From positions 1 through 64,000 of the forward strand of contig JALFLH010000024.1 in assembly GCA_022774865.1 (NCBI GenBank): a stretch of 64,000 nt of DNA. The letters run 5' to 3'. Shown in pieces: positions 55,415-63,717 of this stretch; positions within the stretch are counted from its first letter, which is position 1; each line of letters opens with the position of its first letter. Both the position numbers and the translations under genes were made by a program. This stretch comes from Clostridiales bacterium. GTDB taxonomy: Bacteria; Bacillota; Clostridia; Oscillospirales; Oscillospiraceae. The notes under the pieces are model-generated. The model saw only the letters and a program-made list of their open reading frames with translations, was not told the origin of the DNA and ran no database searches.

Positions 55415-55942
55415 TCATTCCGCCGGAACGGTTTCCGACGGCGCCGTAACGGTGTCCTCCAAAAGCAGGGAGCGCTCGTCCAGAATCAGATTGACGGCGG
55501 CTTTTCCATCGGAGGCGGCGGCTTCCATATGAACCTGTTCCACGCCGGCCAGCGCCATACAGGTTCTGGCCAGACAGGCGCAGGCGGTGGTCAGCTCCAT
55601 GTCCTTCAGCGCGGCGAAATGCTCATCCAGAATGACGTGCAGCGTGGTTCCGTTCCGGTTGATGCCGACGAGCCTGCACCCGGCCGGGAAGGGAGAGACA
55701 AGCCCGTCATCCAGCGGCCCCCGCAGATACAGGGAAAGCAGATAAAACAGATCGTTGTTCCGCCCGGAGATTTCCCGCTCCTCCGGGACGATGACGCCGC
55801 CCTCGGGATGAGCCTGCAGCTCGCTGCTCTGCCGCCGGTAGAAAAACGTAACCGGCGCTTTCCAGCCGCTGCGTTCCAGCGAGCAGCCGGCGATGGAAAG
55901 CAGCAGGCACAGCGCCGCCAGCAACGGGATGGCTTTTTTCAT
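55415..55942 (-). CDS. GerMN-domain lipoprotein (GerM-like)
   Basis: A 175-aa lipoprotein (MKKAIPLLAALCLLLSIAGC, Cys 20) with one GerMN domain: VTFFYRRQSSELQAHPEGGVIVPEEREI, LLSLYLRGPLDDGLVSPFPAGCRLVGI and LHVILDEHFAAL. GerM in Bacillus is needed for engulfment and germination. Single-domain forms next to two-component systems are common in Firmicutes. Its start overlaps the kinase stop (ATGA), so it is coupled to the signalling genes. Confidence 0.88.
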   Translation of the reverse strand: MKKAIPLLAALCLLLSIAGCSLERSGWKAPVTFFYRRQSSELQAHPEGGVIVPEEREISGRNNDLFYLLSLYLRGPLDDGLVSPFPAGCRLVGINRNGTTLHVILDEHFAALKDMELTTACACLARTCMALAGVEQVHMEAAASDGKAAVNLILDERSLLLEDTVTAPSETVPAE

Positions 55943-57381
55943 GGCGTATCCTCCTCGGTGTCAAAAACGGGAAAACGGACGGTGAAGGTGGTTCCCTTTC
56001 CCACCTGGGATTCCACTGCAATCTGCCCTCTGCTGCGCTGGACAATGGAGCGGACGATTGCCAGCCCCAACCCGCTTCCACCGGTGGCGCGGGAACGGGC
56101 TTTGTCCACCCGGTAAAACCGCTCAAAGATGTGATCCAGCGCCTCCTGCGGAATTCCCATGCCCGTATCGGCCACCCGCAGTACGGCGTTGTCCGCCTCC
56201 CGCAGCAGCGAAACCGAGAGCTTGCCCCCGGGGACGCTGTACTTGATGCCGTTTTCCACCAGATTGAAGATGATCTGGTAAAGGTCATCCTCCAGAATGA
56301 GAATGGGACAGTCCTGTTCCAGATGGGTCTCAATGGTGATGCTGTTCTGCTTGGCAATTGCGGAGAGCATCCGAACGACCCGGTTTACGGTGGGCGCCAT
56401 GGTGATGATTTCACATTCGGCGTCCTGCTCCCGCCCGTCCACCCGGGTCAGCGCCAGCAGTTTGGCGGTCGTCCGGTTCAGGCGGTCCGCCTCGTTGCCG
56501 ATGTCGCCCACGAATTCCCGCACGGTATCCATGTCCATGTCGTTCTGCAGAATGGAATCTGCCAGCAGCTTGATGGAGGCCAGCGGCGTTTTCAGCTCGT
56601 GGGATGCATCGGAGACAAAACGGCTGCGTTTCTGCTCGGAGGTGCGGAGCCGTTCCATCAGATCGTTGAATTCATCGCCCAGAAATGTCAGCTCATCGTG
56701 GCCGCCCAGACTGACCTTTTTGGTGTAGTCGCCCTGCTGGATGGTTCGCATGGAGGCCATAATCTGCCGGATGCGCCGGGAAAATGTGTTGGAAAAGGCA
56801 AGGGAGAACACGATGACCAGAAATTCCAGAATCAGCGTAATGCGCAGAATGGTATTCTGCAGGGAACGGATCAGATTGCCCTGATCGGTGTCGTATTCCA
56901 TCATGTACACGCACCCGACGGTGATGCCGTAGGAGACGATGGGGGTGGCGGCGTGGGACTGGATGGTGCCGTCCCGGTACTGGTACCGGCAGGTGAACAC
57001 GTCGTTTCCCTCCAGCGCCAGAACGATTTCGGGCAGCAGCGCATAATGCCCCTGCCCGGCGGCGGTGTCAAAGATCATCTGCCCGCTCTGATCGGTGACG
57101 ATCAGCCGGGTGACCTTCAGACTGCCGAGCTGCTCCACGGTATTGGAAACCGTGGTGGGATTGAGTATTTCCAGCTTGGAAATCTCGTCCGATGCAAGCT
57201 GGCATTTTTCAATCATGGATCGCTTGCTCTGGTAGAAAATGTTCTGACTGGATTTGGAGCAGTACAGATTCAAAACCAGCAGGGCGACCAGTGTGATGAG
57301 CACATACCCCAGCGCGTAGCGAAGCTGGGAATTGGTATACCGGCGGGAAACCGGCGATTCATTTTCTGAAATAATAGCCAA
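55939..57381 (-). CDS. membrane sensor histidine kinase
   Basis: A 480-aa kinase. First span at about 22-42 (YALGYVLITLVALLVLNLY), extracellular sensor about 43-175 (PAS/Cache-like, VTRLIVTDQSGQMIFDT), second span about 178-200, HAMP, then HisKA with the phospho-accepting His in SDASHELKTPLASIK (about 270), and HATPase motifs NLVENGIKYS, VADTGMGIP and GGSGLGLAIVRSI. The start is a TTG overlapping the response regulator by 23 bases. It resembles the WalK/PhoR/VanS class. Ligand unknown; the partner gerM gene hints at envelope control. Confidence 0.92.
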   Translation of the reverse strand: MAIISENESPVSRRYTNSQLRYALGYVLITLVALLVLNLYCSKSSQNIFYQSKRSMIEKCQLASDEISKLEILNPTTVSNTVEQLGSLKVTRLIVTDQSGQMIFDTAAGQGHYALLPEIVLALEGNDVFTCRYQYRDGTIQSHAATPIVSYGITVGCVYMMEYDTDQGNLIRSLQNTILRITLILEFLVIVFSLAFSNTFSRRIRQIMASMRTIQQGDYTKKVSLGGHDELTFLGDEFNDLMERLRTSEQKRSRFVSDASHELKTPLASIKLLADSILQNDMDMDTVREFVGDIGNEADRLNRTTAKLLALTRVDGREQDAECEIITMAPTVNRVVRMLSAIAKQNSITIETHLEQDCPILILEDDLYQIIFNLVENGIKYSVPGGKLSVSLLREADNAVLRVADTGMGIPQEALDHIFERFYRVDKARSRATGGSGLGLAIVRSIVQRSRGQIAVESQVGKGTTFTVRFPVFDTEEDTP

Positions 57382-58048
57382 CGCCCCACTTCGTTAAAAT
57401 ATATTTGGGTTCCGCCGGGTTCTCCTCCAGCTTCTCCCGGAGCCTGCGGATGTGGACATCCACGGTGCGGATGTCGCTGCGGTATTCGTAGGTCCAAATG
57501 GTGTCCAGCAGCGTTTCCCGGGAATAGACCCGGTTGGGGTTGCGCATCAAAAATTCGATCACATCGAATTCTTTGGCGGTCAGGTCGGTCAGAACGCCGG
57601 AACGGTACGCGTTTCGGGCATCCAGATCCAGCGTAATGGAGCCGACGGTGAGGGTGTTGCTCTGAACCGGTTCTTCCTTTCCGCCGCGGCTGCCCGCCCG
57701 GCGGAGCAGCGCCCGAATCCGGGCTTTCAGCTCCAAAATGTTGAAGGGCTTGGTCAGGTAATCGTCCACGCCGTGGTCAAAGCCCAGAAGCTTATCCATA
57801 TCGTCGGTTTTGGCGGTGAGCATAATGATCGGCACATCGGAAAATTCCCGAATCACGCTGCAGGCGGTCAGGCCATCCATTTCCGGCATCATCACATCCA
57901 GCACCACCAGATCGGGGTTCTGCTCCTTTACCAGCGCGACAGCCTGTGTGCCGGTGGAGCCGGTGATAACCTCGTAGCCTTCATTCTGCAAATTAAAGCG
58001 GATGCCTTTTACCAGCAGCGCTTCATCGTCCACAACCAGTATTTTCAT
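57359..58048 (-). CDS. OmpR-family response regulator
   Basis: A 229-aa regulator with receiver residues DD (about 7-8), phospho-acceptor Asp in DLVVLDVMMPEMDG (about 51), T in IIMLTAKTDD (about 77) and K in DYLTKPFNILELKARI (about 101). The C-terminal winged helix has LTAKEFDVIEFLMRNPNRVYSRETLLDTIWTYEY and RTVDVHIRRLREKLE. GGGAGGTAC precedes ATG 58048, which overlaps the comEA stop. Cognate to the kinase downstream. Confidence 0.95.
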   Translation of the reverse strand: MKILVVDDEALLVKGIRFNLQNEGYEVITGSTGTQAVALVKEQNPDLVVLDVMMPEMDGLTACSVIREFSDVPIIMLTAKTDDMDKLLGFDHGVDDYLTKPFNILELKARIRALLRRAGSRGGKEEPVQSNTLTVGSITLDLDARNAYRSGVLTDLTAKEFDVIEFLMRNPNRVYSRETLLDTIWTYEYRSDIRTVDVHIRRLREKLEENPAEPKYILTKWGVGYYFRK

Positions 58049-58419
58049 GATGTACCTCCCGTTGTCACATAATCCCAGATATCTTCCAGCTTCTTTTCTC
58101 CGATTCCGCTCACCATCCCCAGCTCGCCCACGGAGCGGAAGGGGCCATTGGCCTCCCGGTAGTCAATGATCCGCTGCGCCAGCACGGGCCCGATGCCGGG
58201 CAGCGACTGAAGCTGAGCGGCGGTTGCCGTGTTGATGTTGACGATTTCCGGCTGCGCAGCTTCGGTTCCGGCGGAGGCAGTAACCTCTGTGCCGGCCGTC
58301 GCGGCGGGCAGCGCCCGAATCTGCACCGGAACCCGGCCCAAATTTCTGCCGATGAAAAAGCCGGACAGAAAACCGGCGAAGATGCAGGTGATCAGAAGCA
58401 GAAGATGTGGTTTTTTCAT
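58045..58419 (-). CDS. comEA: ComEA-like helix-hairpin-helix DNA-binding protein
   Basis: A 124-aa membrane-anchored protein: N-terminal span (HLLLLITCIFAGFLSGFFIG), a variable Ala/Thr-rich linker, then a double helix-hairpin-helix domain VNINTATAAQLQSLPGIGPVLAQRIIDYREANGPF and ELGMVSGIGEKKLEDIW. In competent bacteria ComEA binds incoming DNA at the membrane; no comEC or comEB is in this window, and the SLBB domain of longer ComEA proteins is missing. The start at 58419 follows GGGAGG. It leads the operon. Confidence 0.9.
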   Translation of the reverse strand: MKKPHLLLLITCIFAGFLSGFFIGRNLGRVPVQIRALPAATAGTEVTASAGTEAAQPEIVNINTATAAQLQSLPGIGPVLAQRIIDYREANGPFRSVGELGMVSGIGEKKLEDIWDYVTTGGTS

Positions 58420-58545
58420 GGGAATTTGCCTCCCGCATTGACTATAGGGGGAAAAGCTGGTATAATACAAACCAAATATCATTTGTTATTATACACGACT
58501 TTTTCCCGTCGGACAAGTCCGATGATTCCGCTTTGAGGTAGAAAT

Positions 58546-60012
58546 ATGAAAAAATTCTTCGGAATACACCTGCTGCTCTGTCTGGCACTGCTGCTGGAAA
58601 TGCTGGGTATGCCGGTATCCGCCACCCAGACTGGCACTTCGCCGCAGGAAACGCTGCCCGCGGCCGGTGACACCGCGTTCGGAACCGCCACGGTAACCAG
58701 CGGCTGCCGTACCCTGGACGGAATGGTTCCGCTGGGCGGCAGCACCGCGTTCCTGAAATCCGCACAGGCCGCTTTCATCTACGAGCAGAACACCGGCACG
58801 GTCATGTATGCCTACAACCCGGACATCACCCTTTCTCCCGGCGCACTGACCAAGCTGATGACGGCAATTGTGGCCATTGAAAACGGCAATCTGTCCGATC
58901 AGGTGACCATCAGCACCGCCAATTACAATACGCTGCCTGCCGGAGCCATCAACGCCAAGCTGAAAAACGGCGAGGTGCTCACGCTGGAGGATCTGCTGTA
59001 CTGCATGATTCTGAAGATGGCCAATGACGCGGCCATTTCCATTGCCGAGCATATCGCCGGTTCAGAAGCCGCGTTTGTGGACATGATGAACAGTCTGGCC
59101 AGATCCATCGGCTGCACCGGAACGGTGTTCACCAACTGCCATGGCATCAGCGCCACCGGGCAGTACACCACAGCCCGGGATCTGGTGCGCATTTACCAGT
59201 ATGCCATGAAAAACAGCGAGTTCAGCACCCTGCTCGGCGCGAAAAGCTACACCGTGCCGGCAAACGACAAATCTGAGAAACGGGATCTGGTCACGAATAA
59301 CTTCCTGCTGGAACAGCTCAACGTCACAAAGTATATTGATGACCGGGTCACCGGAGGCTTCGCCACCTATACCAGCAGCTCCGGCGCGTCTCTGGCCTGC
59401 ACCGCACAGGATGACGGCCTGTCTCTGATTCTGATTGTGCTTGGCTGCTCCCGCACCTATAATTCAAAGGGTTCTGTCAGCTACTATGGCAACTATGATG
59501 AGATGTGGGATATGCTGGAGTTTGCCTTTGATAATTATCGGGTGTGCCGTCTGCTCCACGAGGGGCAGGCGTGGAGCCAGTTTACGGTGGCGAACGGCGA
59601 GAATCAGGTGGTAGGGCAGACCAACACCGCAATGGACGTGGTGCTGCCAAAAGACGCTACAACCAAAAATCTGATTCTGAAGTATAGTGTAGAGGGCGGC
59701 GGTCTGACAGCACCGATTCAAAAGGGACAGAAGATCGCCACGATGCAGATATCCTACCAGAATTCCTATGTGGCGGAGACCGAGCTGTTTGCCATGTCCG
59801 CTGTCCGGTCGGTGACGGATGAAAAGCTGCAGATTCAGAGCGCGACGCGGGATGATTCCAATGTTACAGGGGTGCTGTCCTTCGTGGGTATTCTGTGCCT
59901 GGTCATACTGATTCCGCTTGTGCTGTATCTGGTGGTCAACAATGTCCGGCGCGCCGTTGCCAGAAACCGCCGCCGCCGCAGAAGAAGAAGCCGGAGGAGG
60001 AGCCGCGGATGA
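58546..60012 (+). CDS. DacA-like (peptidase S11) protein with lost catalytic motifs
   Basis: A 488-aa membrane protein with the plan of a D-alanyl-D-alanine carboxypeptidase: signal peptide (about 1-26), S11 transpeptidase-fold domain (about 70-320), a beta-rich C-terminal domain (about 340-430), one membrane helix (about 446-468) and an Arg-rich tail (RRRRRRRSRRRSRG). The active-site Ser of SxxK is Ala: SPGALTK, A100-L-T-K103. The SxN motif is MAN (M158-A-N160). Where KTG is expected the sequence is GGFATYT (F272-A-T274), preceded by VTG. All three motifs are thus replaced, so it is probably not a DD-peptidase. Start by AGGTAG-like site at about 58535. Confidence 0.85.
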   Translation: MKKFFGIHLLLCLALLLEMLGMPVSATQTGTSPQETLPAAGDTAFGTATVTSGCRTLDGMVPLGGSTAFLKSAQAAFIYEQNTGTVMYAYNPDITLSPGALTKLMTAIVAIENGNLSDQVTISTANYNTLPAGAINAKLKNGEVLTLEDLLYCMILKMANDAAISIAEHIAGSEAAFVDMMNSLARSIGCTGTVFTNCHGISATGQYTTARDLVRIYQYAMKNSEFSTLLGAKSYTVPANDKSEKRDLVTNNFLLEQLNVTKYIDDRVTGGFATYTSSSGASLACTAQDDGLSLILIVLGCSRTYNSKGSVSYYGNYDEMWDMLEFAFDNYRVCRLLHEGQAWSQFTVANGENQVVGQTNTAMDVVLPKDATTKNLILKYSVEGGGLTAPIQKGQKIATMQISYQNSYVAETELFAMSAVRSVTDEKLQIQSATRDDSNVTGVLSFVGILCLVILIPLVLYLVVNNVRRAVARNRRRRRRRSRRRSRG

Positions 60013-60572
60013 TGGATTGGGATGCGCTGGAAAAGATGTGCATGACCTGCACCGCCTGCGGCCTGTGCGCGACACGGCATCATGTGGTATTCGGCGTCGG
60101 CCCCCGGGATGCGGATGTGATGTTTGTGGGAGAAGGCCCCGGCGAACAGGAGGATCTGCAGGGCGAGCCGTTCGTGGGACCTGCGGGTCATCTGCTGGAT
60201 GATATGCTGTCTATCATTGACCTGAGCCGGGAAAACTGCTATATCGCCAACATTGTCAAATGCCGCCCGCCCCACAACCGGGATCCGCTGGAGACGGAAC
60301 AGGACGCCTGCATCGGATATCTGCGCAACCAGGTAGCGCTGATCCGGCCGAAAATCATCGTCTGCCTGGGTCGGATCGCGGCCAAACGGCTGATCAATCC
60401 GGATTTTCGCATCACCCGGGAGCATGGAAGCTGGGTACAGAAGAACGGTGTCTGGATGAGCGCCATTTACCATCCCTCGGCGCTGCTGCGGGATGTGGAC
60501 AAACGGCCGGAGACATTTGACGATCTGCTTTCCCTGCGGGAAAAGATCCGTGAAATCCAAGCCAGAATATGA
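60009..60572 (+). CDS. udg: family 4 uracil-DNA glycosylase
   Basis: Removes uracil from DNA. A 187-aa family 4 enzyme: Fe-S cysteines in CMTCTACGLC (C11, C14, C17, C20; some of these plus C in VKCRPPHNRDP are the ligands), motif A MFVGEGPGEQEDLQGEPFVGPAG (about 39-62) and motif B IYHPSALLRD (about 157). ATG 60009 overlaps the stop of the preceding gene, and GGAGGAGGAG at 59992-60001 provides the site; ATG 60012 also possible. Confidence 0.93.
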   Translation: MMDWDALEKMCMTCTACGLCATRHHVVFGVGPRDADVMFVGEGPGEQEDLQGEPFVGPAGHLLDDMLSIIDLSRENCYIANIVKCRPPHNRDPLETEQDACIGYLRNQVALIRPKIIVCLGRIAAKRLINPDFRITREHGSWVQKNGVWMSAIYHPSALLRDVDKRPETFDDLLSLREKIREIQARI

Positions 60573-62571: not shown

Positions 62572-63717
62572 TCAGGTTCCGCCTCGAATCTGCAGGAGTT
62601 TGCTCTTCAGGTCGTTCTCCATTTTTGCCATTTCCGCTTCGGCTGCCTGACGCTTCGCACGACCGTCTGCCTGAATCTTCATCACGTCGTCCAGCGTCTG
62701 AATCAGCTCGGCATTGGTCTTTTTCAGCGTCTCAATATCCGCGATTCCCCGTTCCGCTTCTTTGGCCGTCTCGACGGAGGCCATGTGGAGCTTCTCGGCA
62801 TTCTGCCTGAGCAGGGCGTTGGTAACGTCCGTCACCTGCCGCTGTGCCTGGGCGGCCTCCGTGGAGTGGGCAATGCCAAAGGCCAGTACCATCTGGTTCT
62901 TCCACAGCGGAATGGTGTTCATCAGCGTGGTCTGGATTTTTTCCACCATCACATTATCGTTGTTTTGAATCATGCGGATCTGGGGCGCGGTCTGGATGGA
63001 AATGGCTCTGGTCAGCTCCAGATCATGGATTTTCTTTTCAAAACGGCTGCATTTGTCTGCCAGATCCCGGGCAGCCTGCGCGTCCTCCGCAAGCCCGGTG
63101 CGCTGCGCCGTGGCTTCCAGTTCCCGCAGACGGCCCCGCTGAACCTGCTCCAGTTTCTGCTTGCCGGCCAGAATGTACATGGTCAGCTCCTTGAAGTAAG
63201 CCAGATTCTGCTCATACATTTTGTCCAGCATGGCGGAGTCCTTGAGCAGCCGAACCTGATGCTGCTGCAGGGCTTCGCTGATTTTTTCCACGTTTACCTC
63301 GGCCTTGGCATACCGGTTTTTCATGTTTTCCAGCTTGTTTGACTGCTTGCGGAAGAAGCCGAACAGGCCCTTTTCCTCCTCGGCGTCGCAGCCCTTCAAC
63401 TCACCCACCACGTTTACAATCAGCTCGCCCACTTCACCGAGATCCTGGGTGCGGACATTGGCCAGCGCGGCATCGGAGAAATCCGCCATTTTTTTCTGGG
63501 TTGCGGCGCCGTACTGCAGAATCTGGGCGGTGTTTTCCACATCGATTTTTGCCGCGAAGTCATCAATCATCTGCTTTTCCGCGGCGGTCAGCACCGGCTC
63601 GTCCGCCTGCGTCTGCGGAGCGGCGGGCTGGACTGCGGGTACCGGAGCCTCATCCAGTTCCGGCGTCAGCGTCAGACTTGGCGCTGTCTGCGCAAAATCA
63701 TACGTTTCATTTTCCAT
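62572..63717 (-). CDS. telA: TelA-family toxic anion resistance protein
   Basis: A 381-aa helical cytosolic protein with an acidic, Pro-rich N-terminus and long amphipathic helices. LGEVGELIVNVVGELK (about 92), FGFFRKQSNKLENMKNRYAKAEVNVEKI (about 117), TRAISIQTAPQIRMIQNNDNVMVEKIQTTLMNTIPLWKNQMVLAFG (about 238-283) are diagnostic for TelA. Linked to tellurite resistance and envelope stress; the biochemical role is unclear. It starts one base after xpaC, with GGGAG before the ATG. Confidence 0.95.
   Translation of the reverse strand: MENETYDFAQTAPSLTLTPELDEAPVPAVQPAAPQTQADEPVLTAAEKQMIDDFAAKIDVENTAQILQYGAATQKKMADFSDAALANVRTQDLGEVGELIVNVVGELKGCDAEEEKGLFGFFRKQSNKLENMKNRYAKAEVNVEKISEALQQHQVRLLKDSAMLDKMYEQNLAYFKELTMYILAGKQKLEQVQRGRLRELEATAQRTGLAEDAQAARDLADKCSRFEKKIHDLELTRAISIQTAPQIRMIQNNDNVMVEKIQTTLMNTIPLWKNQMVLAFGIAHSTEAAQAQRQVTDVTNALLRQNAEKLHMASVETAKEAERGIADIETLKKTNAELIQTLDDVMKIQADGRAKRQAAEAEMAKMENDLKSKLLQIRGGT

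Follow-up and report, generated by a model that had tools for sequence, protein, structure and literature searches.

Does a D,D-carboxypeptidase-like gene in which all three catalytic motifs are replaced encode a decaying enzyme, or a protein that selection has kept for something other than catalysis? The gene lies in the window, by which we mean the whole stretch of 64,000 nucleotides analyzed here. The original prediction took its product for a selected pseudoenzyme, perhaps a peptidoglycan-binding scaffold or a regulator of true DacA.

An S11 protein in which the catalytic motifs are replaced

The gene and its parts are as follows.

58546..60012, plus strand: gene for a membrane-anchored pseudo-S11 protein (pseudo-D,D-carboxypeptidase) of 488 amino acids
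58546..58623, plus strand: signal peptide, residues 1 to 26, from hydropathy and sequence (boundary estimated)
58759..59448, plus strand: Peptidase_S11 domain, residues 72 to 301 (Pfam)
58843..58854, plus strand: ALTK at the SxxK site, A100 to K103
59017..59025, plus strand: MAN at the SxN site, residues 158 to 160
59359..59367, plus strand: FAT at the KTG site, residues 272 to 274
59551..59805, plus strand: PBP5_C domain, residues 336 to 420 (Pfam)
59863..60009, plus strand: transmembrane helix (residues ∼440 to 464) and Arg-rich tail

By fold and homology, the window protein is a member of peptidase family S11. It matched the Peptidase_S11 Pfam model with 152.3 bits (cut-off 27.6), and its AF2 model could be aligned to PBP5 and K15 (VIA-align). 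Together with a match to the PBP5_C model (34 bits; cut-off 21.2), this gives the architecture of type-5 LMM PBPs (Escherichia coli PBP5/DacA and PBP6, Bacillus subtilis DacA/DacB; family S11), with which the protein has in common the S11 and PBP5_C fold, a signal peptide, and a membrane-anchored C terminus. The carboxypeptidase plan is complete as predicted, from signal peptide through S11, PBP5_C, and C-terminal membrane helix to the Arg-rich tail, and the replacement of the motifs by ALTK, MAN, and FAT is confirmed. Unlike the type-5 LMM PBPs, the window protein has lost all three, and judged by SxxK, SxN, and KTG, it would not be expected to act as a D,D-carboxypeptidase or penicillin-binding protein. 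The anchor of DacA is amphipathic; in its place, the window protein has a transmembrane helix and a tail in which 14 of the last 24 residues are Arg. This tail, singled out earlier as unusual, is indeed present but is a trait of the subfamily. A Pfam scan of the window protein found no M56 metallopeptidase domain, and the protein is not classed with the BlaR1/MecR1 receptors. Five PF00768 matches were found in the window genome: the pseudo-S11 gene, three paralogues with all motifs (one of them ∼8.4 kb from the pseudo-S11 gene, at C1:68409), and a weak beta-lactamase-like match.

Motif loss among relatives

A protein search returned 927 relatives among 8,000 scored candidates, and the best 120 of the 927, with the query, made up a set of 121 rows (53 to 100% identical; the window's own database copy, the top match, is present besides the query). 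None of these 121 rows had all three motifs together, and KTG was missing from every one. The nucleophile position, 100, was Ala in 54 rows, Thr in 39, Gly in 14, Ser in 6, Val in 6, and Ile in 2, so that Ala, Gly, Val, or Ile stood there in 76 of 121. K103 was retained in 107 rows (∼70th percentile of S11 positions) and N160 in 114 (∼78th percentile), which may be taken as weak evidence of a preserved pocket. A shifted nucleophile was considered and rejected, as the alignment offers no alternative conserved Ser near the active site; nor did the sequences contain a conserved Ser-Lys pair elsewhere in the pocket, which the original prediction had named as a finding that would count against it. 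Orthologues, which might have exposed a local sequencing or assembly error, instead carry the same kind of substitutions. Of the best 120 of 927 relatives, 2 carried Oscillospiraceae as source label, and a scan of genome contigs returned a single distant relative, from Neobacillus.

Within the genus, 35 of 41 genomes had an orthologue; the six without one (G008, G014, G020, G028, G029, and G033) are 58 to 82% complete. At least one motif was lost in 19 of the 35 (different species, the window genome included), and all three were kept in 16, RTG being scored as a kept KTG in G016, G017, and G031. As a control, we read 60 members of two paralogous S11 groups in the genus (loci for 30 of 37 matches in one group and for 30 of 38 in the other), and all 60 were intact. 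Of 27 rows from other genera of the family, 26 were intact; these rows had been chosen by score rank and by the length of the frame, a choice that favors intact ones. The sample also took in 23 further families of the order, with one genome per family, and in 21 of them a match extended to the C-terminal part of the profile. Eleven of these were intact; in the other 10, a copy showed a change in one or more motifs, with Ser missing in 6 of the 10. The change in G039 and G051 is limited to the Asn of SxN and need not abolish activity, and G045, also among the 21, stands separately in the tree and is possibly a paralogue. The motif counts leave out 18 of 124 S11 rows in which the profile match ends before position 430 (paralogues, M56 fusions, and a short G002 copy). 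Motif loss has recurred in other families of the order.

Some copies deserve mention in their own right. G002 carries a second, shorter dead S11 copy of 368 amino acids (L064:8122-9225, minus strand; the same gene as in L009:3086-4189), in tandem with the full-length copy, and its profile match stops before the PBP5_C part. G239, from another genus of the family, has two membrane-anchored S11 genes (L119:6470-8593, minus strand, and L116:6760-8292, plus strand); the copy adjoining the kinase, regulator, and ComEA genes reads DTAK/SAD/KTG, and the other is intact. A C54/C334 disulfide was discarded as a hallmark of dead members: C54 also occurs in many intact members of the genus, and C334 is restricted to part of the dead clade.

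Course of the loss

In a tree of 55 rows from which the motif columns had been removed, the base of the genus was formed by intact members (G010, G035, G025, and G024). Since the outgroups are intact, the intact state is probably ancestral. One clade of 27 rows (support 100/100) never has an intact KTG; the site reads KTS in G018, then VAS, MFS, FAS, LAS, and others. Three of its members (G007, G018, and P0037) keep SxxK and SxN with KTG gone, which fits a loss of KTG first within this clade. As a general rule, KTG-first is contradicted by another lineage (G021, G027, and G370), in which Ser is gone and KTG kept. The minimum numbers of changes on the 55-row tree were 7 for Ser, 4 for SxN, 3 for KTG, and 2 for Lys; an order-wide tree of 112 rows, a quick tree with long branches, gave at least 10 Ser, 9 SxN, and 8 KTG changes, and the counts are unrooted. 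A single clade of all Ser-lost rows was rejected (p-AU = 2e-41), and a single clade of all KTG-lost rows was neither shown nor rejected (p-AU = 0.084). The three losses had been called independent, a description that calls for some qualification: KTG is absent from the whole 27-row clade, and Ser changed several times.

Purifying selection and a shift of constraint

The dN/dS ratio was estimated for five pairs (NG86 values for four, YN00 for two), in most of which dS is near 1, and the ratios are therefore rough. Two close dead pairs gave NG86 ratios of 0.097 and 0.072 overall, and ∼0.09 and ∼0.045 for the S11 part. A third close pair (G007/G015) gave 0.26 and the intact control pair 0.23. At matched overall identity (three bins, motif windows excluded from S11), the ratio of S11 (non-motif) to PBP5_C identity was 0.92 to 1.00 in the dead clade versus 1.26 to 1.47 in the intact sets; relative to S11, PBP5_C is thus better conserved in the dead clade than it is among intact relatives. 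Likewise, the mean share of the majority residue across the 121 rows was 0.82 in the tail, 0.78 in PBP5_C, and 0.69 in S11, and in the intact set it was higher in S11 (0.57) than in PBP5_C (0.44). By these comparisons, constraint in the dead clade has moved off S11 and onto PBP5_C. Because the loss is common to orthologues, the frame is under purifying selection, and the outgroups are intact, we conclude with high confidence that the window protein is a pseudoenzyme retained by selection, and the prediction on this point, which had set selection against simple decay, is strongly supported.

Gene neighborhood and intergenic region

The genes around the pseudo-S11 gene and the predicted elements upstream of it are as follows.

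55415..55942, minus strand: Germane-domain protein (PF10646), next after the histidine kinase
55939..57381, minus strand: membrane histidine kinase (HAMP-HisKA-HATPase), WalK/PnpS-like, below cut-off
57359..58048, minus strand: OmpR-family response regulator
58045..58419, minus strand: ComEA-like helix-hairpin-helix protein, divergent neighbor, presumed start at MKK
58438..58466, plus strand: predicted pseudo-S11 promoter, TTGACT-17-TATAAT; pattern in 29 of 30 genus loci
58488..58516, minus strand: predicted facing promoter of the ComEA/response regulator/histidine kinase operon, TTGTCC-17-TATAAT; pattern in 25 of 30 genus loci
58509..58522, no strand: palindrome TCGGACAAGTCCGA, overlapping the minus-strand promoter at its -35; pattern in 24 of 30 genus loci
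60009..60572, plus strand: family-4 uracil-DNA glycosylase, likely start overlapping the pseudo-S11 stop codon (ATGA)
62572-63717, minus strand: TelA-family toxic-anion-resistance protein (PF05816, E 1e-122)

The ComEA, response regulator, and histidine kinase genes lie on the opposite strand and are transcribed away from the pseudo-S11 gene. The response regulator scored 258.6 to 258.8 bits against the YycF model (cut-off 340), the top among seven matches to this model in the window genome, and the kinase scored 256.6 bits against an NCBIfam equivalog cut-off of 725; both fall below the NCBIfam equivalog cut-offs for WalRK (YycFG). A kinase and regulator lie beside the gene in nearly every genus locus (28 of 29) and, for other genera of the family, in 24 of 27 loci (divergent order in 23). 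Outside the family, they were found in 3 of 30 order-level loci, a sample in which contig ends cut some loci short. The uracil-DNA glycosylase gene lies directly 3' of the gene in all 29 genus loci. Because intact orthologues share the same kinase neighborhood, the link to the kinase is older than the losses in the genus.

Among the 27 loci from the family, the plus-strand promoter, minus-strand promoter, and palindrome patterns were found in 2, 0, and 0, respectively, and in simple shuffles at <0.1%, 0, and 1.3%. The predicted starts of the two facing sigma-70-type promoter matches nearly overlap (58438-58522), and transcription of the pseudo-S11 gene and of the ComEA/regulator/kinase operon may possibly interfere with each other. 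For the WalR box, 4 of 30 intergenic regions scored 11 to 12 of 12 (∼1.0 expected from shuffles) and the remaining regions scored as expected; a WalR-type repeat is not clearly above chance.

Dead S11 domains fused to M56 peptidases

In G007 and G030, a degenerate S11 domain is fused to an M56 (BlaR1) peptidase. Longer dead S11 proteins were found in G023, G026, and G369.

L070:5139-7322, minus strand: M56 (BlaR1-type) peptidase-dead S11 fusion, BlaI-type (Penicillinase_R) gene directly upstream
L201:7589-9817, minus strand: M56 (BlaR1-type) peptidase-dead S11 fusion, BlaI-type (Penicillinase_R) gene directly upstream
L193:4401-7268, plus strand: dead S11 protein (956 to 969 residues), N-terminal S11
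L194:4002-6884, plus strand: dead S11 protein (956 to 969 residues), N-terminal S11
L195:505-3411, minus strand: dead S11 protein (956 to 969 residues), N-terminal S11

The repressor gene beside the G030 fusion is a close relative of that beside the G007 fusion. A search with the fused S11 domain returned 132 proteins, and among the best 93 of the 132 (P0122 to P0214, the query's own copy included), 90 had both M56 and S11. As aligned, SxxK or KTG occurred in 0 of the 93; the commonest motif set was DLGK, GGD, and FAY. S11 is the C-terminal domain of the fusions, where Pfam shows no PBP5_C. In a tree of S11 domains, all 13 fusions tested fell inside the dead clade (39 rows; 100/100) with G019 as nearest neighbor (98/89), on a long branch of 1.22 changes per column. 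The fusion occurs in 2 of 41 genus genomes, and none was found in the window genome at E 1e-15. In the 956- to 969-residue proteins, the catalytic motifs are missing from a separate dead S11 domain, which is followed in the L193 and L194 proteins (both Pfam scanned) by a PQQ/BamB-like propeller.

The fusions resemble BlaR1/MecR1 with BlaI/MecI in that, at the two loci, the dead domain is the C-terminal part of an M56 protein beside a Penicillinase_R-type gene. The sensor domains of classical BlaR1/MecR1 are class-D/transpeptidase-like and are acylated on serine. In contrast, the domain of the fused relatives is derived from S11 and lacks the SxxK serine (0/93 as aligned), and the window gene has no M56 part.

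A proposed function and its rivals

With somewhat better than even confidence, we propose that the pseudo-carboxypeptidase was recruited as a non-acylating cell wall sensor or regulatory module. The comparisons support an ancestor that had SxxK, SxN, and KTG and stood beside the ComEA/response regulator/histidine kinase operon. The motifs were lost within the genus, and purifying selection held on to the fold, the anchor and tail, the layout of the promoters, and the open frame. The dead domain also occurs joined to BlaR1-type M56 proteins, next to a BlaI-type repressor gene in the two loci read. Working without covalent catalysis, the protein may convey the state of the cell wall as a receptor or adaptor, for example through reversible contacts with stem peptides or with a second wall protein. 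Its main working surfaces would be PBP5_C, the anchor, and the Arg tail, and its likeliest signaling partner the adjacent kinase/regulator pair. We infer a sensor role and favor a non-covalent sensor or adaptor because the kinase/regulator neighborhood is older than the losses and the dead domain was reused in a BlaR1-type transducer. The two-component neighbors and BlaR1-type fusions point more to sensing than to a scaffold or a regulator of true DacA. Gene neighborhood is nevertheless no proof of partnership, and the kinase neighborhood holds for intact orthologues too. Further points against the sensor reading are the few order-level loci outside the family with a kinase and regulator, the rarity of the M56 fusion in the genus and its absence at E 1e-15 from the window genome, and the long branch on which the fusions sit.

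The main rival to the sensor reading, to which we give perhaps one chance in four, is a regulator of other wall enzymes: at the membrane, the dead protein would attach to true carboxypeptidases, to synthases, or to hydrolases and either switch them or hold them in position. The three S11 paralogues of this genome whose motifs are complete, one of them close by, and the move of constraint to PBP5_C and the tail would suit such a regulator. There is also a precedent in the degenerate LytM factors EnvC and NlpD, which PMC8416486 describes as relatives of wall enzymes that are no longer catalytic but have been retained as regulators (in that case of amidases). The window protein differs from these in fold and family. 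Among the genes compared, however, the conserved neighbors include regulators but no other wall enzyme, and the BlaR1-type fusion is more easily explained by sensing. We regard it as improbable that PBP5_C, the membrane helix, and the polybasic tail do the work (e.g., by binding lipid, nucleic acid, or a cytoplasmic partner) with S11 as a folded spacer. Conservation in the dead set is highest in the tail and in PBP5_C, but the S11 part is still under purifying selection in two pairs, and S11 is the very part present in the M56 fusions, where no Pfam PBP5_C is seen.

Residual or altered catalysis, with Thr or another residue substituting for the serine nucleophile, is very unlikely. Although position 100 is Thr or Ser in a minority of rows (39 and 6 of 121), Ala, Gly, Val, or Ile stands there in most rows, KTG is missing throughout, and no conserved Ser stands elsewhere near the site. 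Least credible of all is that the motif changes are artifacts of sequencing or assembly, or that the gene is a pseudogene in decay. The genome assembly is a draft (35 contigs), but like losses occur in database relatives and in 19 genomes, the window's among them, that come from different species, and the open frames, the low dN/dS in two pairs, and the conserved promoter patterns speak against decay; orthologues and dN/dS rule this explanation out.

Implications

We put forward more tentatively, at somewhat less than even confidence, that the dead S11 domains of the clade form a new class of non-acylating cell wall receptor in two wirings, one anchored and linked to a kinase/regulator operon, the other fused to an M56 protease and linked to a BlaI-type repressor. 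In the open-access literature, judged by titles and the beginnings of abstracts and with subscription papers outside its scope, our search found no description of dead S11 proteins or of S11-type M56 receptors. For annotation, membership in S11 may mislead as to activity, as two of the relatives are named "D-alanyl-D-alanine carboxypeptidase". If the receptor class is real, wall precursors or fragments would be sensed by a penicillin-binding fold that penicillin cannot label, and the BlaR1-like receptor type should answer to something other than a covalent beta-lactam. A classical family of penicillin targets would then have been converted repeatedly to non-catalytic proteins, with one such lineage displaying intermediate stages inside a single genus, and this lineage would offer a direct route to testing how an enzyme turns into a receptor.
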